In this document: in pieces, positions 25,709-46,577 of the stretch
How positions within the stretch are numbered: the first letter of the stretch is position 1
How the letters are laid out: the number at the start of each line of letters is the position of its first letter
Assembly: GCA_014762625.1 (NCBI GenBank)
Contig: JABURQ010000035.1
Location: 1 to 64,000, forward strand
Length of the DNA: 64,000 nt
Origin: Planctomycetaceae bacterium
Lineage (GTDB): Bacteria; Planctomycetota; Planctomycetia; Planctomycetales; Planctomycetaceae
Direction: 5' to 3'
The notes under the pieces: generated by a model
The model's database searches: none
The model's input: the letters and a program-made list of their open reading frames with translations, nothing else
What the model was told of the DNA's origin: nothing
Program-made: the position numbers and the translations under genes

Positions 25709-28296
25709 GGGAGGAATCGAAATTCGGCACTCGCAAACAAGGCTTGCACCAGCGACGACCAGGCCGCTTGTTCCGCCGACTGTTTCTCATCATCGTTCTT
25801 TGCCATTTGCGGCTGTAAATCGGCAATAAACTCACGGGCCACCTGCACCTCATCGGGTGTGGGACTCCGCGTGAAACAGAGTCGATACACGAGTTCGATC
25901 CGTTCGTCGTTGTTGCTGGAGGCCGCGATTAACCGCGTCGCGGTGGCGTCCGACTGTTCGAGGACGAACGGACTGTTCATCAAAAACAGCGATTGTGAGG
26001 GAACGTTCGTCGTATCCCGGTCTCCCTGAGGGTTCGACGGTTCCGGAAGATCGAACAGTTTCAGAAACTCCGGAACGATGCCCCGTAAGATCGGAAGATA
26101 GACCGAACGATGCGGGAACGGCTCGGTCAGATATTCGGTTTTGATGCCGCGTCCCACTTCACCTTCTCCCACTTTGGTCACGAGAGAGGCTTCCGGACGA
26201 TTGAGATCGAGCTGACCGCTGACAGCGAGAATTGCATCGCGGAACGGTTCCGCTTCCAAACGACGACGACTCATTCGCCACAAGTACGTGTTTGCCGGAT
26301 CGATGGTGTCATTCTGTGCGTGGTAATCGGACGAGAGCTGATAAGTTCGAGTCAGAACCAGTTCGCGGATCAGACTCTTCAGCGACCACTTGTGATGATG
26401 GACGAAGCGATGCGCGAGGTAATCGAGCAGTTCGGGATGTGACGGAGGCAAACCGTTCACGCCAAAATTATCGACGGTCTCGACAATTCCTTTCCCAAAC
26501 AGATGCTGCCACACGCGGTTCACCGCCACTCTCGGCGTCAGCGGATGATCGGGTTGGGTAATCCATTGGGCCAGTTCTCGGCGTCCGCTTTCCTGATCGG
26601 TGATTTCGGGGACGTTTTCGACCGAGACGCAGGAGAGAAATCCGCGCGGCACGATCTCTCCCGCTTTATTCTTCTCACCTCGAATCTGGATCGGATAGTC
26701 CATGATTTTCTTATCGTCTTGGACGGCCAGCGCAAATTCGATCTCGGGAAGTTGCTCCTGGCGCAGTTTTTTCAGTTCGGCGTTCAGTTGTTGGACTTGT
26801 TCCTGAGCGGAGACCAGTTTTTCCATCTGAGCCAGTTGCTTCTGCTCTTTCTCGTCCAGTTGCTCGCGAGGGCTGGTGGAGGCATCCTCCTCTTTGGAGG
26901 TGGACTCGATAGTCTCCAGTTTGGTTTTGATTGCGGCGAGTTGTTCTTTCCAATCCTTGGGAAGTTTTTTCGTCAGCGTTTTGATCTCTTTATTCAGATT
27001 TGTTTGTTTCTTCGTCAGTTCATTCACTTCTTTTTCGTGAGCCCGCAGTTGGGCCAGTTTCTTATCCGCATCTTTTCCCAGGGGAAGGGCATCTTTCGCT
27101 TTTTCGAGATCATCTTTCGGACGCCGCGTTCCGCCGCCGTAATAAGTTTTCGTGCTGCGGAAAATACCGACCAGACCGTAATAGTCGGCGGTGGGGATCG
27201 GGTCGAACTTGTGATCGTGGCAGCGTGCGCAACTCACGGTGAGACCCAGCATCGACTTACCGATCACATCGATCTGGTCATCGGGAATATCGAGAGCCAG
27301 ATTGCCGCCGTTGAGTGACTTCGAACCGATCGCCAGCATGCCGGTGGCGATTGACAAGCGGTCCTGCTCGGCAGGATTCTCGGCGCTAAGTAAATCTCCC
27401 GCAATCTGCTCGGTGACGAAACGATCGTACGGTATGTCAGCGTTGAAGGAATCGATCACGTAGTCTCGATAACGCCAGGCATCGGGCATCAGGACATCGC
27501 GACTGTTTCCGGTCGATTCCGCATAGCGAACCACATCGAGCCAGTGTCGTCCCCAACGCTCTCCAAATTGAGGAGAGGCCAGCATTTCATCGGTGAAATG
27601 CGCGATCGCCTGCCGGGGATCGCGGTCGTACGCTTTCAGAAACTGATCCTGCTGTTCGAGTGTCGGCGGTAAACCGACCAGATCGAACGACAACCGACGC
27701 AGTAAATCGAGCGGGTCGGCATCGGACACCGGCTCGAGTTGATGTTGCTGAAGTTTCCGGAAGACGAACTTGTCGATGTCGTGTCGGGGCCAGTTTGAGT
27801 TAACTTGCGGCGGTTGGGGATTCTGAACCGGTTGAAGCGACCAGAGTTCGGTCGTTTGTTGTGCTGGGGATTCGTCGCCGTGTTCCGCCATTTCCATTTT
27901 CCCGTCACGAGGATCGGGAGCCCCCATCTGAATCCATTTGCGAAAGTCGGCAATGATGTTCTCAGGGAGCTTCTTGTCCGGCGGCATCTCGTAAGTTTCG
28001 TATTCGAGCGCCTCGATCAGAACACTTTCGTCGGCATTTTTGGGAACGATAGCGGGGCCGGATTCGCCTCCCACGATCAACCCCTCACGCAAATCGACGC
28101 GGAGGCCACCGCCGAGTTCGTCACTTTTCTCGGAGTGACATTCGTAGCATTGCTGTACCAGAACCGGACGAATCTTCTTCTCAAAGAAATCGAGTTGAGC
28201 CTGTGATGGTTGATCTGCGTCGGAGCGCGTCGTCGCGCAGCCGATCAGAATCAACATGACCACAATTGATTGATTGAAGAAGTTTCGAGAACGCAT
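25705..28296 (-). CDS. PSD1 protein with planctomycete cytochrome C domain (DUF1549/DUF1553)
   Basis: An 863-residue exported protein with an N-terminal lipoprotein-like signal (LILIGC at about 16-21). The PSCyt1 domain has the heme motif CYECH (near 50) and a distal methionine in YEMPPDKK. DUF1549 (about 155-375) and DUF1553 (about 590-830) follow. Between them lies a Glu/Lys/Gln-rich coiled-coil region (about 395-520) that includes repeated KKLTQLRA-type heptads. It is upstream of its DUF1501 partner. It is probably a redox-linked surface protein; the substrate is unknown. The stop overlaps a repeat-like sequence. Confidence 0.9.
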   Translation of the reverse strand: MRSRNFFNQSIVVMLILIGCATTRSDADQPSQAQLDFFEKKIRPVLVQQCYECHSEKSDELGGGLRVDLREGLIVGGESGPAIVPKNADESVLIEALEYETYEMPPDKKLPENIIADFRKWIQMGAPDPRDGKMEMAEHGDESPAQQTTELWSLQPVQNPQPPQVNSNWPRHDIDKFVFRKLQQHQLEPVSDADPLDLLRRLSFDLVGLPPTLEQQDQFLKAYDRDPRQAIAHFTDEMLASPQFGERWGRHWLDVVRYAESTGNSRDVLMPDAWRYRDYVIDSFNADIPYDRFVTEQIAGDLLSAENPAEQDRLSIATGMLAIGSKSLNGGNLALDIPDDQIDVIGKSMLGLTVSCARCHDHKFDPIPTADYYGLVGIFRSTKTYYGGGTRRPKDDLEKAKDALPLGKDADKKLAQLRAHEKEVNELTKKQTNLNKEIKTLTKKLPKDWKEQLAAIKTKLETIESTSKEEDASTSPREQLDEKEQKQLAQMEKLVSAQEQVQQLNAELKKLRQEQLPEIEFALAVQDDKKIMDYPIQIRGEKNKAGEIVPRGFLSCVSVENVPEITDQESGRRELAQWITQPDHPLTPRVAVNRVWQHLFGKGIVETVDNFGVNGLPPSHPELLDYLAHRFVHHHKWSLKSLIRELVLTRTYQLSSDYHAQNDTIDPANTYLWRMSRRRLEAEPFRDAILAVSGQLDLNRPEASLVTKVGEGEVGRGIKTEYLTEPFPHRSVYLPILRGIVPEFLKLFDLPEPSNPQGDRDTTNVPSQSLFLMNSPFVLEQSDATATRLIAASSNNDERIELVYRLCFTRSPTPDEVQVAREFIADLQPQMAKNDDEKQSAEQAAWSSLVQALFASAEFRFLP

Positions 28297-28496
28297 GAGG
28301 TCTCCCGTTAATCAGGCAGGCGGGATGAGGTGGGCTTAAAAGGTGGGCAAGGCGGGATTCTCTTAAGAAGGATCGGAGAAATCTGCGCCAAACTCCATTA
28401 TAAGCGGTAAAAGTCGGGTTATGCAAGAATTGCCTAGTAGCAACAGACGTAACGTCATTTACTGCAATGACATACGACGAATGGCGCAAGAAAAAA

Positions 28497-28522
28497 CCGC
28501 CGACCTGAACATAGATCGGCGG
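28497..28522 (-). terminator. Rho-independent terminator for the lipoprotein pair
   Basis: A 7-bp GC-rich stem (CCGCCGA / TCGGCGG) followed on the minus strand by TTTTTT. It is 29 bp beyond the stop codon of the lipoprotein gene at 28551, so it ends the two-gene lipoprotein transcript. Nothing else is seen in the 254-bp gap up to the PSD1 gene. Confidence 0.85.
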
Positions 28523-28550
28523 CAGAAATTCGAATTCAGGCGGAAGATCC

Positions 28551-29225
28551 TCAAGTACGGTCGGAAATATCATCCGAGGCATAATATTCGAAGAAGTGCT
28601 TGCCGATGTCGTAACTCAGACGGAACAGATACTCCTTCTTGAACTGTTCCAGAGACGATTCCTGCGACGAGCGCGGCACGGTGAGCGGATATTTGGAGGA
28701 GATTTCCTTGGAGTAGATGATCTCCGCTTCGTCGTCGGCCGCCATATCCCAGACATTCACTTCGCAACGTGAATTGCCGCGATAGAGTGTGTGGGAGTTC
28801 TGCTCGTACAGCGAGTAATCGGTCATATCGACGTGAATGACGTAAGTGACGTCGAAGTATTCGCCAATTTCCGATGCGGATGCCCAATCCGGATTTTTGT
28901 CGAGCCAGGCTCGCACCTGATCCGGGTAAATCACTTTGATTTTCTTCTGAGCCAACTGCATCGTGATCGCTTCGGCGACCAGATTATCAATTTCGTCGTA
29001 ACTCCATTTGAGAGAAGGCGGGGCAGTACAAACGACCGCCACGGTCACGCCGTAATCTTTCATATCCTTGCCGGTCTGAGCGGCAAAGTCAGGCTCGATG
29101 CTCGGCGGTCCCCCGATCATGTATCCGAGAATGACGCCGTAATTGCACCCGGTCAGCAGCAGGCAGGGCACAAGCGCCAGAATCAGGAGACAGAATTTCT
29201 GAGCCGTCTGATGTTTGAGGGACAT
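28551..29225 (-). CDS. Hypothetical lipoprotein, paralogue 1
   Basis: A 224-residue lipoprotein with a clear signal and lipobox LLTGC (about residues 23-27). The mature part resembles the next gene upstream in length, order and short motifs: YxxDQVRAWLDKNP versus NKVANWLDDNG, then YVIHVDMTDYSL versus YIIHLDIDSMTL, and a late YRGNSRCEVNVW versus YEGRVSGTIYGY. The family is unknown to me. It is the second gene of a tandem pair separated by 48 bp and followed by a terminator. Confidence 0.75.
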   Translation of the reverse strand: MSLKHQTAQKFCLLILALVPCLLLTGCNYGVILGYMIGGPPSIEPDFAAQTGKDMKDYGVTVAVVCTAPPSLKWSYDEIDNLVAEAITMQLAQKKIKVIYPDQVRAWLDKNPDWASASEIGEYFDVTYVIHVDMTDYSLYEQNSHTLYRGNSRCEVNVWDMAADDEAEIIYSKEISSKYPLTVPRSSQESSLEQFKKEYLFRLSYDIGKHFFEYYASDDISDRT

Positions 29226-32073: not shown

Positions 32074-33729
32074 ATGGCTGCAATTCCTGGTTGGCTGTTG
32101 CCAGTCCTGCTCTGCGGCACTTTTGGGGGGCCGATCCTGGCGACGTGGAAACCTGACCGGGAAGATTCGCACTGGCGGTGGGGGATCGGCGGGATGTTGA
32201 CTCTGCTGACTCTCGGAGTTGTGATCGATGGGGGAGCTTCCTGGTATGGCCCCCCCCTGTTTCGACTCGATTCCTTTCACGAAATTCGGCTGTATCTCGA
32301 TCTCTCGCTGTTCGGATTAGCGCTGCTCTGGGCGATCTGGTGGTTTCAAATTCACTCCTTACTCGTAGAGGAGAGGTCTCAAAACCGATTCGCGATTCCT
32401 CTCCTGATTTTACTGATCCTCAGCCGCGATCTCTGGCTGAGTCTCGCGGCGTTGATCGGATTCACGCTGATTCAGGAATCATGGAAGGCGCAGAGGCGAG
32501 ATGACTCTTTACGGACGAGAGTTCTTCGCGGCTCTCACAGGTGTGGAGTCCTGCTGCTGTTGCTGTCGATGGCGATTCTCGGCTTTGATTTCGAGTTTTC
32601 AAACTATGCGCATCTGGCGGAGGAAGTTCGCGTCTGGGACCAATTTTCCTCCGTCCAACAAGCCGACTTGCGACTGGCGGCGCTGCTGGCTTCTGTGGGA
32701 GTGTTGTTGATGGCCGGAGTCTTTCCCGTCTCCTCTCTTTGGATCGACCGGGAAACGACCTCCTCGACGGATCTCCTCGGGATCATGGCGGCGGTGGTGT
32801 TTGCCGATCGTCTGTTGCCGCTGTTCACCGCTACTCAGATGACGTCTCTTTTCTTGATGCTTCTGCTCTGGACCGTCGCCTCAGCGATGGTGGTCAGTCT
32901 GGCAATCTCCAGCCGAATCAAGAGACGGCAGGGGATCGCACTCGCGTTATTGATGCTTGGCTTCCTGGCACTCTATACCTCGGAGGGAGGGGACTCTTTC
33001 ACAACCTTGAGATACCTGGGGATCGAACAATGCCTTTTGAGTCTGGTCTTATGGCGACGCTGGCAGCGACCTGCCTCGTCCGACCGATTTGATTCCTGGC
33101 TGCAAATCGCACTGACCGGCTGGTTGATTCTGGATCTCTCAGGCTGGGCCACCGCGATTCAGGATGCCGTCAACACATTCGGACCTTTTTCGTCTCTGGT
33201 TCCGGCACTGATCTCGACGGGGCTCGCCTACAGTACCTCACACGTGTTTCGCGAACACAGGGAAACGATCTCTCCAAAGAATGGCAAATCCGCCGCGCAG
33301 CTTGACTGGATCGTCGTCGTGGCGATCATCTTTACGATACGCTTCTCATTGTGGAAAGCGGGCCTGAACTGGTTCGTTCTGCCCTCCTGGGAAGTTGTCT
33401 TGGGAGCAGCAATCGGGGCAAGCTTGGCCTGGGCTCTCCTGAAACGGCTATCAGAATCCCGCCAGCCGGGACGTCTCTCCCACACATTCCAACAACTGGC
33501 GGAATCTCACTTCCACACGCTCGACCTCTGGGACGGCTTAATGCAGATTCCCGCTGCCTGTCTCGGAGCACTCCTCAATTTCATCGAAGTGTGGCAATTC
33601 CGCCGACAACGTGGAACCGGACGTTGGGAGGAGGACGACGACTCGCAAATATCTTTCAGGTGGGAACTCGCATTAGGCGGAGCGAGTTTGCTCGTGCTGT
33701 CCGGACTGTTTCTCTGGATGAAAGGTTGA
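32074..33729 (+). CDS. NuoL-like membrane protein (degenerate complex I antiporter subunit)
   Basis: A 551-residue protein of mostly hydrophobic segments (about 14-15). Two features suggest the NuoL/Mrp antiporter family. The first is a segment reading LLASVGVLLMAGVFP (cf. the antiporter TM7/8 loop). The second is a C-terminal stretch around HTLDLWDGLMQIPAACLG. The TM5 glutamate typical of these subunits is not found (aligned position is Ile in my hand alignment). It is the first of three co-directional genes with 7-bp and overlapping spacing. The ATG at 32074 is chosen because the longer frame runs through the dispersed repeat. It may form a proton or ion channel with the next two proteins, but this is inference. 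Confidence 0.6.
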   Translation: MAAIPGWLLPVLLCGTFGGPILATWKPDREDSHWRWGIGGMLTLLTLGVVIDGGASWYGPPLFRLDSFHEIRLYLDLSLFGLALLWAIWWFQIHSLLVEERSQNRFAIPLLILLILSRDLWLSLAALIGFTLIQESWKAQRRDDSLRTRVLRGSHRCGVLLLLLSMAILGFDFEFSNYAHLAEEVRVWDQFSSVQQADLRLAALLASVGVLLMAGVFPVSSLWIDRETTSSTDLLGIMAAVVFADRLLPLFTATQMTSLFLMLLLWTVASAMVVSLAISSRIKRRQGIALALLMLGFLALYTSEGGDSFTTLRYLGIEQCLLSLVLWRRWQRPASSDRFDSWLQIALTGWLILDLSGWATAIQDAVNTFGPFSSLVPALISTGLAYSTSHVFREHRETISPKNGKSAAQLDWIVVVAIIFTIRFSLWKAGLNWFVLPSWEVVLGAAIGASLAWALLKRLSESRQPGRLSHTFQQLAESHFHTLDLWDGLMQIPAACLGALLNFIEVWQFRRQRGTGRWEEDDDSQISFRWELALGGASLLVLSGLFLWMKG

Positions 33730-33736
33730 TCCGGAG

Positions 33737-35530
33737 ATGTCTGTACTGATCAGTCTGTTTCAACAACTCCCGATGTTGCTGATGGCGGTCCCGCTATGCG
33801 GAATAACGAGTGTGTGCCTGGCGACTCGCTGGGGAGACCGGTTGATTCGTCGCAGCTTTCTGGTCAACGGAGTATTATCGCTCGTCTGCGTGCTGTTGAT
33901 GGTACTGTTTTTCACCCAGGGCCCGAAACGAACCGGCTTATCATCGTCGGAAAGTTTTCAGCAGGTTAATCTGCTACTAACTGATGTCGAAGCGAAAGCC
34001 GGTTACCGATTCGGAGTCGACGGCTGCACGTTGTGGCTGGTCGTGCTGACGGCGGCCTTCCCGTTAGCGGCGGGATGGGAGAATTCGCTCTCTCGAGACC
34101 GATCGAACATCAATTCCCAGCGAGTTTCGCCTCCTCTCAACGGAAAAATCACAATCGGGCTGCTGGGACTGCAATTCGGTGTGCTGGCGTTTCTGCTCTC
34201 ACTCGATCGCCGCGTCCAGATCGTGATGCTACTGTTATTGGCGTTCGTCGTTCATTACCTGCTGGCGGTTACCGTTTCTGCTCCTTGTCGCCGTTTGCTC
34301 ATCCGTCGCCTGAGACAGATGTTATTGAGCGACTTCCTGATCATCGCCGGATTTCTCTGCGCGACAACTCCTCTCCTCCGTCATACGAATATCGGAAACG
34401 ATCCTGCAGAACTGTTCGACGTGATTCGGATGCTTGCCGAAATCGAAGAACGCCGTTTTGAAGACATCACATCCTACGAACGCCTGATGCAATCGAGGAC
34501 CCCTTCGATGTGTGTGATGCTGTTGGGGTGTGTCTTGCGATTCGGAACATTTCCCTATACCACCGAGAGCCGAAAGATCTGGCGCGAGACCTCTCCGCTG
34601 GTGAGGGGAGTCTGGATGTTGTATGGACCTGTGATCGGCCTGTCGGTCATCTGGCGGGAACTTCAGTTATTCCCCGAGTTCGGCTTTCAACTCTTTGCAG
34701 TTATCAGCTATTTCGGGGTCGTTGGATTGGTATGGCTCTCCATACAGTCCCTTTTACAGCCGTCCCCGGACGACGATTCTCTCTCGATGGTCTTTTATTC
34801 GACTCTACTTGTCATGGTTTCCGGCGGCTCGAATACCACATCCCTCGCCGGAGCGTTGTTGATTTTGACGGCGTTAGTGGGACGCGCTGTGTGGCCTCAC
34901 TCCCAGGACACCCCACAGGATTCTTTCGTGGGACTGATCGGGTGGGCGACTCGTTTTCTGCTGACCGCCGGATCGACGTTGGCCGTTCTTGGGCTCTGGC
35001 AATCGTCGGGGCGCGGGGCGAGAGAATTGGGACTGGCCTTCTTCACCGGTCTATCTCTGGTGTTGATGGCGACCAGGCTCCGTGAAGGCAAGCCGGAGAC
35101 TTCTCGTACTCTCCACCTGGTGAGTGTGCCATCAGCGATTGGAAGATCCACATCAGGAGAACAACCGGTCTGGAACCTGTCCCCCGTTTCGGTTCCGGAA
35201 GCCGAACGATCCGCTCGAGTTCGGACGATCGCCGCGATCGTTCTGACGCTGCTGTTGTTGTTGATGCCTCAGTGGATCTGGCAACAGGTTCGCTGGGACT
35301 TTCAGAAACTGGAATTTCCTCAATCCGCGAACGGGTTCTCAGAGTTTGTCTTCGAATTCGCTTTTCGAGGCGAGAATGAGCAAACTGTTACCCGATTGAG
35401 GCGGTCGAAACAGTCGAATCCCCCAGATTCGACGATGCAGACCAACGAAAAGCGGGTGACTGGCTTGCCATTCGTAGCCAAAATGGAATTTGAAGACAGG
35501 CTCTTCGGTCAGGAGGAGACTCAGCCATGA
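33737..35530 (+). CDS. NuoM-like membrane protein (degenerate complex I antiporter subunit)
   Basis: A 597-residue, multi-spanning protein. The N-terminal half holds the strongest family sign: YRFGVDGCTLWLVVLTAAF (about 91-110), which matches the GVDGLSLxLVLLT block of NuoM/NuoL. A later block, LGCVLRFGTFPYTTESRKIW, resembles the GxxxKxGxxPFHxWLP loop. In the aligned TM5 the usual FWE is replaced by hydrophobic residues. It overlaps the next gene by 4 bp and follows the previous one by 7 bp. An acidic/charged C-terminal tail (about 555-597) lies outside the membrane. It is either a non-enzymatic relative or a modified ion channel subunit. Confidence 0.65.
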   Translation: MSVLISLFQQLPMLLMAVPLCGITSVCLATRWGDRLIRRSFLVNGVLSLVCVLLMVLFFTQGPKRTGLSSSESFQQVNLLLTDVEAKAGYRFGVDGCTLWLVVLTAAFPLAAGWENSLSRDRSNINSQRVSPPLNGKITIGLLGLQFGVLAFLLSLDRRVQIVMLLLLAFVVHYLLAVTVSAPCRRLLIRRLRQMLLSDFLIIAGFLCATTPLLRHTNIGNDPAELFDVIRMLAEIEERRFEDITSYERLMQSRTPSMCVMLLGCVLRFGTFPYTTESRKIWRETSPLVRGVWMLYGPVIGLSVIWRELQLFPEFGFQLFAVISYFGVVGLVWLSIQSLLQPSPDDDSLSMVFYSTLLVMVSGGSNTTSLAGALLILTALVGRAVWPHSQDTPQDSFVGLIGWATRFLLTAGSTLAVLGLWQSSGRGARELGLAFFTGLSLVLMATRLREGKPETSRTLHLVSVPSAIGRSTSGEQPVWNLSPVSVPEAERSARVRTIAAIVLTLLLLLMPQWIWQQVRWDFQKLEFPQSANGFSEFVFEFAFRGENEQTVTRLRRSKQSNPPDSTMQTNEKRVTGLPFVAKMEFEDRLFGQEETQP

Positions 35531-36936
35531 TCGAATCGAGCCTCATTTTGACATTGTTACTGAACTTTTTCCTCACGGGATGCCTCTGTTCTCTCCTGAT
35601 CCGAAGCTCGAAGTGGGCTGAGATCACGCGCCCTTTCACACAAGCCTCTCTCATTTTTGGACTAGGGACCTGGTTTCTTTATCGCCACGAACTCGTCGAC
35701 CTGGAGATCGATCTGTTCGCGATCAAATTGGTCCCGTGGCTGATTATGATGCAGCTCGGGATGAGTCTGCTGATGAGAAAGCAGTCGGACGGCACCTACT
35801 CGCTTCATCCGGGAGTGATTTTGTTTTCCACGTTCAGCTTATGTGGATTGTGTCTTTCGGATCATCTCGGGTTCCTGTTCCTGTTTGGAGAAGCTCTCGC
35901 CGTCAGTTTGTGGCTGATCGCCGCGAAAGATCAACGACGCAAGACCATATTCCGGACGCTGGTGACCTCTGTGCTGATCGGACTGGGAACAAATCTGACC
36001 CTTTCGGAAATCCAGGTCGATTTGACCGCTCCCACGTCGCTTTCCAACGCCTCTGACCAGAGCGAAATTGCTCGCTTTGCGGAACAGGATCCAGAGCTGG
36101 GACCGCGCTGCCGAGTCGGTTTGTTGTGCTTTATGCTGGGGATCTCCTGGCGGGTGGGATTCTTCCCGTTTCCACGCGATCGGGCAGGCGAAGATTCCAT
36201 CGTCTGGTTTCAGAGAGACGTTTCCCTGTTATCGGCGAGCGTCTTGGTCCCGCTGATATTTCTTCCCCGGCTGGAGGGAGGGGAACAGCTCGGACAAATG
36301 CTGATTTTTACCTTTGCCGTTCCGACGATGATTCGGGAAACGCTCCAGTGCGGCTGGCGCGATAGTTTGTTTGAGCGGATCCAATGCTGGTTCGTCGCGT
36401 CGGCGATCCTGATGTGGATGGGCATTTCGCAGGAGCTGTTCAATCTCGATCGCGGAGAACAATGGGGGCTCTGGCTGCCGATGGGACGCGAGATGGTTCG
36501 CTTGGAACTACTGAGTAGCCTGGCGGGGTTCCTGCTGGCTGTGGGCATTCTGCGTGAACTGAGCCATTCCCGAGTCCCCTGCCCTACGAGAGAGGACCTA
36601 TCCGGTTTGCTGTGGACTCATCCGCTTCCCGCCGCGCTTCTCAGTCTTGCGTTATTGAGTTGGGTGGGACTTCCCGGACTGGCGGGATTCCAACCGCGGT
36701 TTGGAGTTCTGGCGGGAGCGTTTGAGATCGCCGGTCTGGAACTGGATGTTTCGACAGGCTACGCTCTCGTCGGCGTCATCATGACGGTCTGTCAGATGAT
36801 CCTGTTTTTTCTGGTCCTGCTGACCGTGCAATCTCTCTCGGAGTCGCCAGCCTGGCATCGACACACTCGCGGCAAGCTGACGTGGCGTCTCTGCGTGTTT
36901 GCGTTGTTGCTGCTGGGTCTCTTCCTGAGCCTGTGA
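35527..36936 (+). CDS. NuoN-like membrane protein (complex I antiporter subunit relative)
   Basis: A 469-residue protein with about 12 hydrophobic segments. The block LFLFGEALAVSLWLIAAKD (E122) keeps the TM5 glutamate and its neighbourhood as in NuoN/NuoM, where FWE is typical. LLCFMLGISWRVGFFPFPRD resembles the proton-channel loop near TM7-8, and GLPGLAGFQPRFGVL near the C-terminus resembles the SLAGIPPLAGF motif of NuoN. The gene starts inside the previous one (ATGA overlap). It retains more key residues than the two upstream proteins, so it may be the ion-conducting part. Confidence 0.68.
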   Translation: MIESSLILTLLLNFFLTGCLCSLLIRSSKWAEITRPFTQASLIFGLGTWFLYRHELVDLEIDLFAIKLVPWLIMMQLGMSLLMRKQSDGTYSLHPGVILFSTFSLCGLCLSDHLGFLFLFGEALAVSLWLIAAKDQRRKTIFRTLVTSVLIGLGTNLTLSEIQVDLTAPTSLSNASDQSEIARFAEQDPELGPRCRVGLLCFMLGISWRVGFFPFPRDRAGEDSIVWFQRDVSLLSASVLVPLIFLPRLEGGEQLGQMLIFTFAVPTMIRETLQCGWRDSLFERIQCWFVASAILMWMGISQELFNLDRGEQWGLWLPMGREMVRLELLSSLAGFLLAVGILRELSHSRVPCPTREDLSGLLWTHPLPAALLSLALLSWVGLPGLAGFQPRFGVLAGAFEIAGLELDVSTGYALVGVIMTVCQMILFFLVLLTVQSLSESPAWHRHTRGKLTWRLCVFALLLLGLFLSL

Positions 36937-38849: not shown

Positions 38850-39015
38850 AACAGCATGTTGAGAAACGGATTCGTTGGTGAGAACAAAAAATTTGAGGTG
38901 TGAACGAGAAACAAGCCCGCAGGCGAATCTACTGATCCGTCGAGGGATTGTGACGAAGTTTCTCAACTCAAAGAGCTGTTCGAAACAGGATTAAGTTTTT
39001 TAAACGGGTTGTTAG
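38850..39015 (+). repeat. Dispersed inverted-repeat element, copy C (full length)
   Basis: 166 bp, the same length as the copy at 61170-61335, with similar sequence throughout (start AACAGCATGTTGAGAAACGG, end TTTTTTAAACGGGTTGTTAG). The right end overlaps the stop codon of the prenyl synthase gene at 39012. The left end is just upstream of the CsaA-like gene. Confidence 0.75.
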
Positions 39016-40877
39016 GGACGGGGAGGAGCCGTCAATTGCAACTCGACAGTGGGAGGATCCTGAGGCGTTTGCTCTTCGTGGGCCAGCACAGAATCGACCA
39101 GGAAATACAGTAACTGTCGCAGGTCTTCGTTTTCGACGTCGTCCGCCAACGCTTCCGCACGTGCCTGAGATTTGTCGACGAGCGCTTCCGCCGTCTCGAA
39201 CGCTCCCAACTCGGTGTAAAGCGTTTTGAGTTCCCGCAATCGTTGATCGGCGGGACGCTCCGAGTCAAACAGTTCTTTCAGTTGTGCTTTCTGTTCGTCG
39301 TTCGCTTCCTGCATGGCAATCGCCAGCAACACCGTCGGACGGAACGAAAGGGCATCCTGACCGGCGACCAGTTTGTTGTTGTCGTCTCCCTGCCAGTCTT
39401 TCAGGTCGTTCAGAATCTGGAAGCCGACGCCGATATGCCGACAGAACGCAGAGATCATTTCCTCGTACGGTTTTACGTCCCCCGCCATGCGAATCCCGGA
39501 ATAGAGGGCCGCTTCAAACGCGGGAGAGGTTTTGAGCGCGTAAATCTGTAAGGCGTCGATCGGCTTGAGGTTCCAGTCGCGGGATTCACTCCACGACATC
39601 TCAGCCCCTTGTCCTTCGCACAACTTGATGTGCGCGGCCGACATCTGTTGCAGTACGTCGGCGGTCACTTCGGCTCCCAGACTTCCGGCTGCCGAAGAGA
39701 TTAATTTGTAACCGACGCCAATCAGGTAGTCACCGATGTTGATCGCCTGCCCGGTGCCGTGTTTTCGATGCAGTGTCTCGCGACCATATCGATAGAGGTC
39801 ACTGTCTTGGATATCGTCGTGGACCAGAGAGGCTTTATGGAATGCTTCGATTGCCATTGCAATCCGACACACATCCGCCTCGAACTGGTACGCCTGAGTG
39901 CGGTCACCCGAAGAATCACGCGAGGAATTCGCGGCGGTCGCTCCCGTTAAGGCGTCGTAAGCCGCCAAAGTGATGAAGGGTCGAAACCTCTTCCCTCCCT
40001 TAGCGAGCCAGTCGTAAGCGACTTCTTCGGTAAAAGCGATCGGAGAATTTTCAGACTCCGAGGACCCGCTTCGAACCGCCGGCAATAATTCTTCCAACCG
40101 TTTTTCGAACATCTCGTTCGAAGCCCGCATAATCGGCAGGTAACTGGACGTTTGCGGTTCGGGAAGCGGTTCATACTTGTCGAGAACGTCCCAGACCCAC
40201 GATTCGTCCAGCGACGTATTTTTGCAATCGCCCGAGTGCAGCGGAACGGCGTAAGACGGTACGCCGGCGATTAGCACTTTATCGATCGCTTTTTCCAGGA
40301 CGTTCAAGCAGGCGACTCCCAGGATCCCTTCGACATATCCCGAGACGATGATCTTGAGAACCACAGGTGACCCCTCAGCCACCAGCACCTTGTAACCGAG
40401 TTGCTCCGCGCGAACTTTGTAATCCGCAATCGAACAGGCCCCGCAAGACTCGCAATCGAGTCCGAACTGATCGTATTCCGCGGGACAGCCTTCCGCGTGT
40501 TTCAAACAGTGAGGCAGCAGCAACATGCGTTTTTCAAACGGGATCGCCAGAAACTGACGCTTCCAGAAAAAATTCCCGATCAACACCATCACGAATCCGA
40601 GATACTTTTCGGGCAGATCCTGTTGTTTCAAGAATTCGCGACCGTGCTGCTCCAGTTCCCCCTTGTTGAAAGGTCGGGTCTTATCGAGCGGTTCGGCGTA
40701 TTTCTCGGCCGCATCACGGATCGTTTCCCGCTGCGCAAGAGTCTCCGGCACAGCCTTCAGATGGCTGGTGCTGCGACGCTTCTTTTTTCGTTTCACGGGA
40801 CGTTCGATATCACCGCTCTCCACATCAGCAGAGCGTTGTGATTCAGTCTCGGAAGAATTCAGTGGGGCGATCGACAC
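39012..40877 (-). CDS. DUF116-polyprenyl diphosphate synthase fusion
   Basis: A 621-residue protein with two parts. Residues about 75-265 match DUF116, with a Cys-rich cluster at C124, C131, C142, C145 and C148 that could bind a metal or Fe-S cluster. Residues 290-600 are a trans-isoprenyl diphosphate synthase with GGKRFRP (294-300), the first Asp-rich motif DDIQDSD (354-360), and the second DLKDWQGDD. It joins IPP with allylic diphosphates to make C15-C40 chains. Its start is GTG (40877) with GAGAGG upstream. It is the last of four co-directional genes. The stop lies in a dispersed repeat. Confidence 0.85.
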
Positions 40878-40952: not shown

Positions 40953-42809
40953 TTACCGCGCTCCTTCACTCGAGGAGGCGAGTTCCGGGCCCGATGTTGA
41001 GGCGGACTTATTGTAGTCACTTCGACTCGCGGAATGCAGGGCCGAAACGGTAAAAATCAAAGGATATAAGTCCTCGTAGTACCACAGTTTGGCAAAATAA
41101 AACCCAATCGGTTGCGGATTTTCCACCGCTCCCGATTCGACCGCCGAGATCAACCAGTTGACTCCCAGCTCCAGATGGCTCCCTCGACGACCGCAACTCA
41201 GAAGCGTTTCGAGGGCCAGCGCCGACTCTTCCACGCTGCCCGGCGTATCGGAGCCTCCCCCCCAACTCCCATCCGCGTTTTGATTCGCTTCGAGCCAGTC
41301 GAGACCGCGCCGAACTTCCGGTTCCTCCAGTCGCCCGCAGTCGCGATACGCGGTAAGAACTTTCGAAGTCCCATAGGTCGGATTCTCATCATCGGGAGCG
41401 CGCTGATTGCCGAACCAGAGAGGCAACCACGAGCCATCGACACGATGAGAAAACTTGAGATAGCGAAATCCGCGTTCGACCGCTGCAGCGGCACGAGCGG
41501 AGAGGGGGGAGTCCGTCTGACTCCCTCTCCATAACACAATCGCTCGCAAGGCGTGAGCGGTAATGTCGTTCGAGCTACGATCGAACGGCAACGTCCCCCA
41601 GCCTTTACAGAACGTCGGCCAACCGCCATCCCGGTTCTGCAAGTCGAGTAACCACTTCACACCGTTCGTCATCGCCGCATCGATGCGGGACTGGGTCTCT
41701 TCCGGGCAGCGATCGCGAAGTTCCGCCAGTGCCAGAATCGCCCCCGGCGTATCGTCGGCATCGGGGACACCTCCCGAAAGATCGGTCCACGCCCAGCCGC
41801 CGGGATCGGCGTTCGTGTAGGGATGGACTTCCTGATATTGCTGATTCAGTAACCAGTCGGCAATCGGTTCGGCGCGTCCTTCCGGAAGAGAGTCTCCCAG
41901 TGCATTCGTGGACAGCGTCGTCACCCAGGTCGCTAAATTGGTATCGATGGGCCAACTGCCGTCATCGCGGACGGAATCGACGAGAAATTGAATACCGCGT
42001 CGCAAGACGGGATGATCGAGCAATCCCATCCCTGCCAAACTCATCGAGACAAAACTGGTCAGCGGCGTCGCTTCGAGGAACCCGCCCGATTCCGGCTGTA
42101 TCCGTTCCAACACCCGCAAGCTCGGTTTCCGAGCGAGATTTCGCACCCATCGCCACGGCAGGAACCAAGTCGGTTCCTGATGATGTTTTACCTGTCCGAT
42201 GGCAATCAACGCGGGCAATGCGTAACTGACCACCGGCAATTTTACGGTCTTATAAAAGTTCGCCGGGAGGCAGGCGAGTTCAAACGGCAGCGAAGACACT
42301 TCCGACCACTCTACTTGACCCGACAAAGCGCAGTGAGTCAGGATTGGAATCGAAAACGTTTTGTCCTTGCCGTACCGCTTCAATAATGCCGGGATGCCTC
42401 CCGCTTTGTCGATATACGTTTTCGCCGCACAGACACATTCCGAGAAACGGTCGGTCTGCTTGGTCGCATAGAAAGCGGCGTGACACAACATCGTGGTGGA
42501 AATATTGCTGAGACTTTTGTCGGTATCCCCCCAGCCGCCGTCCACATTCTGTTCCGCTTCCAGATACGCCAAACCGCCTTCGATCAAATCTCGGAGTCGC
42601 TGTTCGTCGTAGGACTCTGTGGGAGGTTGTTCCGAGGATTTTGAAAGCACGGTTTGCAACGCCACGACTGCCGTGGCGGTCGAGAGGGCAGAAGACGAGA
42701 GCCGTCCGAACCAGTGACCGGCTGCTCGATCGAACTGTTCGAGAAGTGACTGCGTGACCCGATCGCGGGCGGTGTGCAGTCGGTCTTGATCGATTCCGGG
42801 AAATTCCAT
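40953..42809 (-). CDS. Squalene-hopene-cyclase-like terpene cyclase
   Basis: A 618-residue alpha/alpha-barrel protein with repeated QNxDGGW-type QW motifs (for example about residues 87-94, 283-286, 400-406, 500-506) and the class II cyclase acid motif DADDT (D350, D352, D353). It probably cyclises squalene or another polyprene to a hopanoid-like or tetraprenyl product in the membrane. The ATG at 42809 lacks a good ribosome site. A TTG at 42839, overlapping the stop of the previous gene, would add ten residues. The prenyl synthase that could supply substrate follows after 75 bp. Confidence 0.8.
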   Translation of the reverse strand: MEFPGIDQDRLHTARDRVTQSLLEQFDRAAGHWFGRLSSSALSTATAVVALQTVLSKSSEQPPTESYDEQRLRDLIEGGLAYLEAEQNVDGGWGDTDKSLSNISTTMLCHAAFYATKQTDRFSECVCAAKTYIDKAGGIPALLKRYGKDKTFSIPILTHCALSGQVEWSEVSSLPFELACLPANFYKTVKLPVVSYALPALIAIGQVKHHQEPTWFLPWRWVRNLARKPSLRVLERIQPESGGFLEATPLTSFVSMSLAGMGLLDHPVLRRGIQFLVDSVRDDGSWPIDTNLATWVTTLSTNALGDSLPEGRAEPIADWLLNQQYQEVHPYTNADPGGWAWTDLSGGVPDADDTPGAILALAELRDRCPEETQSRIDAAMTNGVKWLLDLQNRDGGWPTFCKGWGTLPFDRSSNDITAHALRAIVLWRGSQTDSPLSARAAAAVERGFRYLKFSHRVDGSWLPLWFGNQRAPDDENPTYGTSKVLTAYRDCGRLEEPEVRRGLDWLEANQNADGSWGGGSDTPGSVEESALALETLLSCGRRGSHLELGVNWLISAVESGAVENPQPIGFYFAKLWYYEDLYPLIFTVSALHSASRSDYNKSASTSGPELASSSEGAR

Positions 42810-42835
42810 AAGCGGCAAACACACTCTTGAGAAGG

Positions 42836-43927
42836 TCAAAGCCCCAGGTTGTCCAGATCGTCCAGCATGTCATCGAGTTCGTCGCGTTCGGCATTCTCTT
42901 CGGTTTGACGTTTCGGAATCCCGACGCTCAGGCCGACCGCTTCGCGCCCGTCGGCGACGAGTTCGGTATCGCGTTCCTGAGCCGCCAGTTCGATCGCGGT
43001 CGGAGCACCAAACAGCTGCGACAGGTCAATTTTCAGATTGCCGACTTCTCCGGGAGCTCCCGCAATTTGTGCGGATTTGTGCTGCGGAAAAATGATGGCG
43101 TTTTCCGGACAGACGCGACTGCACGCCGGACATCCTTTCTTACAGTTGTCCTGTTCTTCCACCAGAATGCGGTCGAGCGTATCGACGCCGTACACGCCGA
43201 ACAGGCAGAAATCGATGCACTCCATGCAGTTCGTGCAGCGGGAATAATCGATCACCGGATACCACCGACGCGTCACCTTTTCGGAAGCCCCATTCGTCTC
43301 GGCAGGACTCGCTCCATTTGGGGAGGAGCCGTTCTGTTGAGGGTTCTGAGCGGAACCGTTGTTGGTCGGTTGACCGTTGCCGTTATTCACAATTGGCAAC
43401 GGATTGAGATACCGCTCCATCTGCTCCTGTTTTGGATTTCCCTGAATGAACGACATCAGATCGACCGTCTGCGTACTGGCCTCCGAGACGAGGCGACGGA
43501 TCTCATCGAGATACGGTTCCGCATCGCCGAAGGAACGCAAATCGAGACAATAAATCTTCCGCGGAGGAGCATCGACCGAGCCGATCCCTTTGCTGGCCTG
43601 TTCCTGCTGTTCTGCGCTCAGTTCCTCCTCATCCTCCTCATCGTGCAGCGTCGTAATGCCTTCATGACCGCGGATTCCGGCCCGATCGAGCGTCCAGAAG
43701 GCCGCCCGCGGATAAAGCCACGACGCGAATACGATATCCCCCGGGATCCCCTTCAAAAACAACATGCCACTGTGATCGTGCGACATATCGTAAAGATGGG
43801 GAACCAGAGAAACCTCGACGTCGCCGGACATCATCAGTTCGGCGGCGAGCGTCTCTTCGAGTTCGCGATGCGCAGGATTCTTGCTCTGCGACTGCGAGAT
43901 CACGACGGTCAGTTTTTTGCCGGCCAT
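42836..43927 (-). CDS. Two-cluster [4Fe-4S] protein of the cyclase operon
   Basis: A 363-residue protein. Residues 1-165 form a globular domain of unknown family. Residues 181-216 are a linker rich in Asn, Gly and Pro. From about 220 follows a ferredoxin-like domain with cysteines at 231, 234, 237 and 241, and again 262, 266, 269 and 273 (the second with an extra residue, CKKGC). The C-terminal tail is acidic. It most likely moves electrons. It lies between the lipoyl-protein gene (40 bp upstream) and the cyclase gene, so it may serve a reaction on an isoprenoid. Confidence 0.75.
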
Positions 43928-43967
43928 AATGTTTTCCGAGAAGCTCTAAGGGTCAGGTCACAAACTG

Positions 43968-44423
43968 TTACGATTCGTTGATTTGCCCTTTGATGACGCG
44001 CTGGGTTTTTTCCCAGACGCTGTCGAGCAATTCCACGTATTGTTCGGCGGTCATCAGGTCGGCGTCCGTCTGAAAGACGTACAACCAGCCCTTGCCGTAT
44101 CCGTCCGAATTGATGAGCGAGGGGTCGTCCATCAACGCGGGATTAAACATTTGAATCAGTCCATCATAAGGAGCGAACAAATCCGACAACGCTTTGGAAG
44201 ATTCGATCTCTCCAATTTCCTGTTTTTTCCGGACGGTTGTACCGGCTTCGATATCCCAACTGAGAAAATAAACATCCTGCAACAGTCGCACCGAATAGGC
44301 GGTAAACCCGACCCGGTAATGATCTCCGTCTGGCTTGAGCCACAGGTGATTTTCGGAATAGAGGCGATCGGTGGGGATCCGGGCCTCATATTGGCCCATG
44401 GCGAAGGTTAATTCGGACGACAT
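43968..44423 (-). CDS. GcvH-like lipoyl carrier protein
   Basis: A 151-residue protein from the ATG at 44423. It has the glycine-cleavage H fold: [19 protein letters not shown], a conserved lipoyl-lysine K77 in [10 protein letters not shown], and APYDG. The rest differs from the housekeeping GcvH, and no gcvT or gcvP gene is near. The next genes encode an Fe-S protein, a terpene cyclase and a prenyl synthase, which suggests a lipoyl-linked redox task apart from glycine cleavage, comparable to the lipoate-binding proteins of sHdr sulfur pathways. A TTG at 44495 is possible but unlikely. Confidence 0.8.
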
Positions 44424-44614: not shown

Positions 44615-46060
44615 TTACGGAGTTTTTGATTCTTCGGTGGGAAGATAAACGCTGTCGCCTACGGACCGACACCATCGCCGAAGTTCTGTCTCCAGTTCGC
44701 TTTCCACATTCCCCCAACGATCTTCACCGCTGAGATTCCGTAACTCGTAAGGGTCATTCTCCAGATCGAACAACTGCCGTTTGTGGAGCTGCGGATATTC
44801 CACAAGTTTCCAGCGATCCGAACGGATCATCCGCTGTTTGTCGCGAAAATAACCGATCACATAAGGATGTATCGCGTCCCGTTCGCCACGCAGAATTGGA
44901 GCGAATGATTTTGCCGTCACAGTTTCCGGTATCGGAATTCCGCATAGCTCACACACCGTGGGATACAAGTCGCGCAGATAAACTTGGGCCGAGGTCCGCT
45001 CATTTTGAGGGAGTCCCGGACCGGCGACGATTAACGGAACGTTGATCGTATGCTCGTACATGCTCTGCTTCCCGCGGAGACCGTGTCGCCCCACTCCCAA
45101 GCCATGATCGCTGCTGAAAATGATGATGGTGTTCTCGTAGTCGCCCGTTTCCTTGAGGGCGTGTAGAATTCTTCCGATTTCACGATCCAGATGCGAAATG
45201 ACCGCGTAGTAGACCGCGATCGTCTGTTTCACAATTTCCGGCGAGCGGGGGAACGGGAGTAATACTTCGTCTCGCCCGTCGAAGTTTCCGTGGTCGAACG
45301 GATGCTGCGGATAGTAATTCACCGGCAACGGAATCTTCTCCGGATCGTACATCTCCTCAAAACCCGGCGGCAGAAACAGCGGATCGTGCGGAGCGGTGAA
45401 GTTCACCTGTAAAAAGAACGGTTTCTCCCGTTTTTCCTTCAGGAAACCAATCGCCGCGTCGGCAAACTTTTCGCTGATATCGGGCGTCAGTCCGACACCT
45501 CGTTCCGGATACTTTTCCTGGCCGTCTCCGCTCTGGAAGATCCAGCCGCGGTATCCGGTAACCGTCATCCCTTTCCAGTCAGTTTGCGGTTCATACCATT
45601 TGCCTCCACCGCCGGAATAGAGACCGGGCGTTTTTTCAAAGCCGCGATCGATGGGCCGTCCGTCATTGTGCCATTTCCCCACATATCCGGTTTCGTAGCC
45701 GGCGTTCTGCATCGCCTGCGGCCAGAGCGTCAAATCGGGATCGATCCGGCGACCGAAATCGACGACGCCGCTCGTGAAGCCGTCGCAGCCGGAAAGAATC
45801 TCCGCCCGGCTCGGCGTACAGATCGGATTGGCACAGATCGCTTTGGAGAAACTGGTCCCCACACGGGTCAGCTCATCAAGGTGAGGCGTCTGGGTGATTT
45901 CGTTTCCCAAGGCGTGAATGGTGTCCGGTTGCTGATCGTCGCTAAGTAGGAAGAGAACGTTGGGGCGATCGTCGGCAGACAGCCAAGAAGAGGAGAGAAC
46001 GATCAGGACCAGCGCCCGGCAGGCCACGCCGAAAGATCGAACAACGGTGGGAGAATTCAT
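44615..46060 (-). CDS. Sulfatase (formylglycine type), exported
   Basis: A 481-residue protein with a signal peptide (about residues 1-29, ending near SADDRPN). The mature part has the formylglycine motif CTPSR followed by AEILSG, the metal motif FLLSDDQQPD at the start, and SSDHGLGVGRHGLRGKQ near the middle. It cleaves sulfate esters from glycans; the cysteine must be oxidised by a sulfatase-modifying enzyme elsewhere. The ATG at 46060 is chosen; a TTG- or ATG-started form 14 residues longer is possible. It stands alone, upstream of the lipoyl/cyclase genes on the same strand. Confidence 0.88.
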   Translation of the reverse strand: MNSPTVVRSFGVACRALVLIVLSSSWLSADDRPNVLFLLSDDQQPDTIHALGNEITQTPHLDELTRVGTSFSKAICANPICTPSRAEILSGCDGFTSGVVDFGRRIDPDLTLWPQAMQNAGYETGYVGKWHNDGRPIDRGFEKTPGLYSGGGGKWYEPQTDWKGMTVTGYRGWIFQSGDGQEKYPERGVGLTPDISEKFADAAIGFLKEKREKPFFLQVNFTAPHDPLFLPPGFEEMYDPEKIPLPVNYYPQHPFDHGNFDGRDEVLLPFPRSPEIVKQTIAVYYAVISHLDREIGRILHALKETGDYENTIIIFSSDHGLGVGRHGLRGKQSMYEHTINVPLIVAGPGLPQNERTSAQVYLRDLYPTVCELCGIPIPETVTAKSFAPILRGERDAIHPYVIGYFRDKQRMIRSDRWKLVEYPQLHKRQLFDLENDPYELRNLSGEDRWGNVESELETELRRWCRSVGDSVYLPTEESKTP

Positions 46061-46274
46061 GGTATTTCTTCTCTGTGTTAAGAACGAAAGCGAACGACTC
46101 ATCGAGTTTAACAGAACCGCCGTCGGAACTTCGAACCAATTTTCGAGCGATGTGCCGCAAGAAGAATCGGAACAATCGACATTTTTTCTCCGGTTGCCCC
46201 GACCCGGTCACGTTCCAGCCGTTACAGACGTCACGACTGACGGTTCTCTTCCTGATATCGGCAACAATTGCCGG

Positions 46275-46309
46275 TTGACACCTCTCTAATCGACTTTCAT
46301 CGATTAGAG
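46275..46309 (+). promoter_or_regulatory. Candidate csrA promoter with 10-bp palindrome
   Basis: TTGACA at 46275-46280 matches a -35 box. Right behind it is CTCTAATCGA / TCGATTAGAG (46284-46293 and 46300-46309) with a 6-base loop. No good -10 box is seen at 17-bp spacing. The palindrome would cover the promoter spacer, which fits an operator for a dimeric repressor. It lies 52 bp upstream of the csrA ATG. Confidence 0.5.
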
Positions 46310-46361
46310 TTGGTTGTCGTATGAAACCCGTATCATGACTTTTGCATTGCAGGGATTGGCC

Positions 46362-46577
46362 ATGCTCGTACTTAGCCGCAAGAAGGACGAAAAAATCGTC
46401 ATCGGCGACCAGATTACACTGATGGTGATTGACATCCGAGGAGACAAAGTTCGACTCGGTATCGAAGCGCCCAAGGATGTGGCCGTTCACAGACAGGAAG
46501 TCTACGAAGCGATTCAAAAAGAGATGGAAATGGAAGCCGAGTCCACGAATGAGTTAAAAGACTCATCCGTGAGCTAA
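46362..46577 (+). CDS. csrA: Carbon storage regulator CsrA
   Basis: A 71-residue RNA-binding protein that begins [16 protein letters not shown], the standard CsrA/RsmA start, and has the [18 protein letters not shown] core. It blocks or helps translation by binding GGA motifs in mRNA leaders and often controls motility and carbon flow. The ATG at 46362 has AGGGA upstream. A longer frame from 46314 would add 16 residues not seen in the family. No fliW or flagellar gene is near. The C-terminal tail is acidic. Confidence 0.93.

Follow-up and report, generated by a model that had tools for sequence, protein, structure and literature searches.

We analysed a 64,000-nucleotide stretch of planctomycete DNA (the window; contig JABURQ010000035.1, positions 1 to 64,000), in which three adjacent plus-strand genes at 32074-36936 encode relatives of NuoL, NuoM and NuoN, the antiporter-type subunits of complex I (NDH-1). 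The first gene encodes an L-type protein of 551 amino acids (aa) (P0001; 32074..33729, +), the second an M-type protein of 597 aa (P0002; 33737..35530, +), and the third an N-type protein of 469 aa (P0003; 35527..36936, +). A gap of 7 bp separates the first two genes, and the second and third overlap by 4 bp (ATGA). This layout had been described in an earlier note on this DNA, and it holds, as do the NuoM block that the note placed in the second protein (GVDGCTLWLVVLT, residues 93-105 of P0002) and the FGEAL motif with Glu122 that it placed in P0003. Standard family models recognise little of the trio: P0001 and P0002 have no Pfam match at E <=1, and P0001 has no NCBIfam match at that threshold either. 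P0003 passes the PF00361 cut-off (Pfam, E 1.7e-6); in NCBIfam, the N terminus of P0002 matches NuoM and the C terminus of P0003 matches NuoN, NuoM and related antiporter subunits, all far under the cut-offs.

The identity of the three proteins was assessed by profile comparison with hhalign, which gave for each a full-length, subunit-specific match to a group of diverged L-M(-N) sets from other planctomycete genera (see below), better than that to regular complex I. For the L-type protein, the E values were 5e-6 over 520 columns for diverged L, 0.0099 for regular M and 0.41 for regular L; for the M-type protein, they were 4.3e-13 for diverged M and 6.5e-9 for regular M; and for the N-type protein, 3.9e-13 for diverged N and 4.8e-11 for regular N. 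Identity between the trio and the regular subunits is 14-20% of aligned columns (14-17% for M and N). Phylogenetic trees put regular M on one side (support 98/96) and set the diverged and trio N proteins apart from the regular N and M rows (94/98); the diverged sets were not resolved as one clade. Sequence searches of the PDB with P0002 and with profiles A1 and A2 returned nothing relevant, and profile A3 recovered one NuoN chain (E 2.3e-5). On this evidence we assign the trio proteins as L-, M- and N-type, in that order, and place them by profile nearer to the diverged sets than to regular complex I, the L assignment being the weakest of the three.

Structure prediction agreed with the antiporter fold that the earlier note had proposed. 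The AlphaFold model of P0002, built from diverged and regular M proteins, had a predicted local distance difference test score (pLDDT) of 72.1 and a predicted template modelling score (pTM) of 0.76. Its best PDB matches were M chains (E 2.9e-9; Z 31.3, root mean square deviation 3.7 over 445 residues), a match favoured by the presence of regular M rows in the model alignment. P0001 was modelled from the protein itself, its orthologues and diverged L proteins only, and gave 26 PDB matches at E <=0.001, all of them chains L, l, F or 5 of complex I/NDH-1, the L-type subunits, with modest TM-scores (0.40-0.53); VIA-align scored this model alike against M-type, L-type and Mrp chains (Z ~25). The antiporter fold is thus predicted for both of the proteins that Pfam does not recognise, and neither of the two models pointed to another fold.

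The trio is retained in both other genomes of the genus (G001 and G002; loci L037 and L038), planctomycete metagenome-assembled genomes in which it lies on contigs JAQWSQ010000025.1 and JAURQH010000041.1, with gene order, 7-bp gap and 4-bp overlap all identical to those of the window. The genes adjoining it in the window encode an M20 peptidase and a UDPGP protein, and the G001 trio sits between the same two genes; in G002, whose L gene starts 64 bases from the contig end, the UDPGP side alone is visible. Compared with the window copy, the L proteins of the congeners are 34% identical, the M proteins 45-47% and the N proteins 44-45%. Regular NuoM is 88-89% identical across the genus, and five flanking genes present in all three genomes are 76-93% identical; on the opposite flank, seen in G001 only, the peptidase is 76% identical and two outer genes are 65 and 75% identical. 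The ratio of nonsynonymous to synonymous substitution rates (dN/dS) between G001 and G002 is 0.25 for L and 0.16 for both M and N, compared with 0.036 for regular NuoM and 0.015-0.12 for three neighbouring genes in the same genome pair. Since full-length frames stay open in the congeners despite 34-47% identity, and since dN/dS is 0.16-0.25, these are more than chance open reading frames (ORFs); measured against regular NuoM, the same ratios point to selection of a looser kind.

The M-type gene also carries, in frame near its 3' end, a 164-bp dispersed repeat resembling a miniature inverted-repeat transposable element, with 25-nt imperfect inverted ends (35341..35504, +). It forms an insertion near the C terminus of P0002 that is absent at that place in both congeners. 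Full or partial matches to the repeat number 48 in its own genome (the P0002 copy included), 6 in G001 and 2 in G002, and some copies are split by ~90 bp. Of 13 other copies in an alignment, 10 have TAA at the position of GAA in the window copy, and this replacement is why the window copy reads through as protein. One could suppose that the trio is the functionless, decaying remnant of a duplicated complex I operon, and fast divergence, the loss of catalytic residues and a repeat inserted into one gene would all be expected of such a remnant. Against this, the frames are open, the operon spacing is exact in three species, dN/dS is well below 1 and the repeat copy is in frame, and we regard decay as very improbable.

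The surroundings of the trio bear out the claim that it stands without other complex I genes. A Pfam scan of 14 flanking proteins between 24.3 and 47.6 kb (the small or antisense ORFs at 28181-28582, 42827-43981 and 45942-46517 lay outside it) found no complex I subunit and no NiFe hydrogenase subunit gene, the latter unlike Group 4 hydrogenase complexes; nor was a full complex I set seen beside the trio elsewhere in the genus. The earlier note had proposed a survey for a DabA partner, and no DabA (PF10070) was found beside the trio in the scanned window flanks, on both sides in G001 or on the one visible side in G002. Twenty regions around the UDPGP gene in other genera held no ORF matching the trio by BLAST, although at least three of them (L091, L093 and L097) are little informative because the contig ends ~1 kb past the gene on the relevant side.

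The genome has a complex I of its own on other contigs, and it follows that the trio is an additional set. Besides P0003, its PF00361 matches are three regular antiporter-type subunits on contig C28 and one on C40, and profile searches located NuoH on C28 and NuoD (PF00346) on C58. The C28 cluster (L042:4647-13075), in which the NuoH and NuoJ genes overlap with no gene between them, we take to be H-J-K-L-M-N, with NuoH backed by the profile search. The genome's own complex I is thus split, with NuoD at G000:C58:2904-3743; its regular NuoL is 925 aa long. Contig C40 (locus L043) presumably holds a DabB-DabA-like pair, whose DabA-like gene is similar to the Pfam-confirmed DabA of locus L118. DabA-DabB inorganic carbon uptake resembles the trio in that it, too, has an antiporter-type subunit that this genome encodes apart from complex I, and differs from it in that no DabA adjoins the trio and the DabA-DabB-like pair lies on another contig. 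At L118 itself (genome G019, L118:6143-14347), DabA (PF10070) precedes two antiporter-type subunits, which BLAST shows to be NuoL-like and NuoM-like, and a sulfate permease-type protein with a P-II domain; this is a DAB cluster with an extra subunit.

The trio had been presented as a set without other complex I genes, and its encoding apart from complex I stood. It does have relatives, since diverged L-M(-N) sets are present in five other genera of the family. In G036 (L114), a diverged L-M-N stands alone; in G013 (L115), one starts near a contig end; and in G015 (L113), a diverged L-M is cut by a contig end, with an N-type gene on another contig (L039). G003 (L112) has three small membrane genes followed by L-M-N, and G079 (L116) has four followed by L-M. 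One of the small G079 genes is NuoK (PF00420, E 9.9e-9; hhalign for the genus g56 group, E 3.7e-9), and NuoK is likely present in the G003 set, where the match is weaker than in G079. The set itself excepted, Pfam found no complex I subunit among 23 proteins flanking L039, L112, L114, L115 and L116; the flanks of the remaining g56 loci were compared by BLAST only. No partner gene was seen to recur beside the diverged sets across genera, and the neighbourhood therefore gives no functional clue.

The extent of the group was gauged with several profiles. Among 170 genomes of the family, the M-type profile matched strongly only in its own genus, with seven weak matches besides; in 294 genomes of the phylum, the L profile found its own copy and two weak matches, the congeners evidently lying outside that sample. 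The weak matches, when read, were regular NuoM in some cases and diverged sets in others. A contig search with P0003 found no relative, and one with profile A1 recovered just the two known congeners. When a profile built from five diverged L proteins (A5) was run against the 170 family genomes, 20 matched at E <=2.3e-90, the next best match being 6.6e-62; five of these 20 supplied rows to the profile and match by construction. The 20 comprise 16 of the 17 genomes of genus g56 and one each from g35, g12, g2 and g14. In 397 genomes of the class, A5 gave 25 matches at 1e-50, and all 18 at <=2.3e-90 fell within the same family. A5 matches no stronger than 1e-62 were classed as regular NuoL, which reading confirmed for L161, L162 and L163, most of the others being left unread. 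Within the window genus, the best A5 match, whichever gene it represents, was 5e-20, so this profile would miss a set as worn as the trio. Lone diverged L-type genes of genus g31, encoding proteins of ~600 aa (L158:6503-9733, L159:7211-10441 and L160:3103-6319), were excluded from the group, as BLAST found no M or N beside them; each lies after another gene, which in L158 has a cyclophilin domain. A literature search on Planctomycetes with NuoL, NuoM and NuoN returned no matching paper, which does not show that such sets are unpublished.

Genus g56 has a distinct arrangement. Fifteen of its 16 loci were read, and 14 have four small membrane genes followed by L and M; the fifteenth (L166) is cut by a contig end. 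The four small genes were recovered by tblastn in 14/14 loci, two of the NuoK matches being partial. Unlike the trio, the g56 sets are thus six-gene membrane operons with NuoK and three further membrane genes and without NuoN in the operon. For the three genes before NuoK, position alone suggests NuoA, NuoH and NuoJ; with hhalign E values of 0.065 for H and 0.063 for J, we do not claim these identities. NuoD (PF00346) was not found in the five g56 genomes searched, all of them single-contig, or in G013, where NuoD was the one subunit searched for in each case; it was found in G000, G001, G002, G003, G015 and G036. Since five genomes with the set yielded no NuoD, gene content indicates that diverged sets can be kept without complex I. 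This bears on the proposal that the trio serves the cell's own complex I as an alternative or accessory end of its membrane part, swapped in for the regular L-M-N under some condition. Cyanobacterial NDH-1 exchanges distal subunits, and the window genome has the NuoH, NuoD and regular antiporter subunits of a complex I. Yet the related sets in g56 and G013 occur where NuoD was not found, and M and N of the trio share so little (14-17% of aligned columns) with the regular subunits that we consider an exchange of this kind unlikely. Instead, the trio belongs, as a very worn member, to a wider class of free-standing relatives of the complex I membrane arm, with which it shares its best profile matches, its separation from complex I and the loss of a glutamate in transmembrane helix 5 (TM5) from L and from all but one M.

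We compared the charged residues of the proton path at the positions named for E. coli in PMC3046159 and PMC9271201, with columns referenced to the genome's own regular subunits. The non-regular rows comprised 13 g56, 5 diverged and 3 trio sequences for L; 14, 5 and 3 for M; and 4 diverged and 3 trio sequences for N. In L, the TM5 Glu is present in 0/21 non-regular rows versus 4/4 regular ones. At the TM7 position, Arg is found in 18/18 rows of relatives, whereas the three trio rows have no charge there (the alignment has a gap at this place). In M, the TM5 Glu is present in 1/22 non-regular rows (G036) versus 8/8 regular rows and the TM12 Glu in 0/22 versus 8/8; the TM12 place is occupied by Arg in the window copy and G013 and not in the congeners. 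The M TM7 position holds Lys in 15 of the 22 rows, Arg in 6 and another residue in 1, and the TM8 Lys is present in 18/22 and lost in the trio. The TM7 residue of P0002 is Arg268 (codon 34538..34540, +), which, like His173 and Asp199, is a charged or titratable residue invariant across the three species.

The N-type subunit differs in that an acidic TM5 residue is kept in 7/7 non-regular rows (six Glu, one Asp), in P0003 as Glu122 (codon 35890..35892, +; invariant in 3/3 orthologues). The TM8 Lys is present in 1/7 non-regular rows versus 13/13 regular ones, and the TM12 Lys in 0/7 versus 13/13, the trio having Arg. P0003 carries Arg209 at TM7, Arg230 at TM8 (a tentative alignment) and Arg391 at TM12 (codon 36697..36699, +; invariant in 3/3 orthologues). 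Taking the TM5 Glu and TM7 Lys as a pair, the trio L has neither, M lacks the Glu and has Arg for Lys, and N has the Glu with Arg. The alignment columns thus agree with the earlier observation that the TM5 Glu is lost in the first two proteins and kept in the third. The same note held the charged residues to be changed, which they are; they are not wholly unusual, since TM7 Arg, found in 6/7 non-regular N rows, is also found in 8/13 regular NuoN rows of related genomes (L016, L018, L020, L022, L023, L024, L027 and L040), and a TM7 Lys-to-Arg change was rejected for NuoN as a mark of the group. In the g56 NuoK, the first Glu is lost in 12/12 rows and the second in 10/10 readable rows, whereas 3/3 regular rows keep both; the NuoK-like protein of G003 has lost both as well.

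We propose, with a probability of roughly 0.55, that the trio forms a free-standing, probably non-pumping membrane complex whose origin lies in the L-M-N end of a complex I membrane arm. The three subunits would assemble side by side as they do in complex I. The known kind of proton wire would no longer be continuous, because the TM5 Glu is missing from L and M, M has lost its TM8 Lys and its TM12 Glu as well, and Arg replaces Lys in N; nothing is known to drive the trio, as no redox arm is encoded beside it. In E. coli, according to PMC3046159, replacing the TM5 Glu with Ala or Gln kills activity in L or M and has modest effects in N, and change of the TM7 Lys is harmful, with function lost, in L, M or N. 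Loss of the TM5 Glu in L and M and its retention in N would thus be the reverse of what a pump needs. A non-pumping assembly could let ions pass, passively or through a gate, by way of the N-type subunit only, or it could be a structural or regulatory membrane protein, and we make no firm choice between these.

Several observations weigh against this proposal. The P0001 model has a pLDDT of 58.5 and a pTM of 0.55, the reverse hhalign comparison from diverged L to trio L gave E 0.0023 and a probability of 12 (M and N hold in reverse), the trio L profile fits regular M better than regular L, and both trees drew long-branch warnings. The g56 M proteins retain the TM7 and TM8 Lys in 14/14 rows, the G036 M retains the TM5 Glu, and the trio N retains Glu122 together with positive residues, which leaves room for ions to move through N. 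Moreover, isolated regular modules conduct protons and a TM5 Glu-to-Gln change raises their leak (PMC11496545), so the loss of this Glu alone is no proof of silence. An ordinary leak through M would not be expected, since its TM8 Lys and TM12 Glu are also gone.

Another possibility is that the trio is an Mrp-kind cation/proton antiporter or a proton leak valve, in which a rebuilt charged set replaces the lost residues. The antiporter fold, the Glu122 of P0003, the invariance of His173, Asp199 and Arg268 in P0002 and the proton conduction of isolated modules would suit such a device; like the trio, Mrp (CPA3) systems have antiporter-type subunits without a redox arm, and Mrp chains are among the PDB matches of both models. 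The Mrp antiporter is the product of a seven-subunit mrp operon with a long MrpA. The trio, in contrast, comprises three antiporter-type subunits, with no protein of MrpA length (P0001 has 551 aa) and no further small membrane genes next to it, and in its L both the TM5 and the TM7 position are uncharged, which leaves this explanation doubtful. With complex I, the trio shares the fold, the L-M-N order, the VDG block in M and the TM5 Glu in N; it departs from it in having no peripheral-arm genes beside it, in the loss of the TM5 Glu from L and M and of the TM12 Glu from M, in its 14-20% identity and in its fast evolution. By the features examined, the trio is neither complex I nor Mrp nor DAB, and a non-pumping L-M-N complex remains our preferred account.

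Elsewhere in the window, a gene at 39012-40877 encodes a DUF116 domain fused to a polyprenyl synthetase. It adjoins genes for a squalene-hopene cyclase-like protein (40953-42839), a 4Fe-4S protein and a GcvH-like protein, and this order is kept in G001 and G002.

For the family as a whole, we tentatively suggest a longer course of events, which we hold with less confidence than our reading of the trio itself: a membrane arm may have become a non-pumping machine, with its proton residues stripped stepwise, may have been kept without complex I, and may in the window genus have been cut to an L-M-N trio with a new role, for example in shaping or gating the membrane. The mechanism of proton movement through the membrane arm, and the residues required for it, are still debated, according to PMC11496545. 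A natural series that starts at regular L-M-N, passes through sets lacking the TM5 Glu and ends in a trio left with few classic charges would offer a test bed for this question. It would also suggest that complex I's largest subunits can be of use where no electrons are transferred, and that the parts of a known pump may have gained another use.

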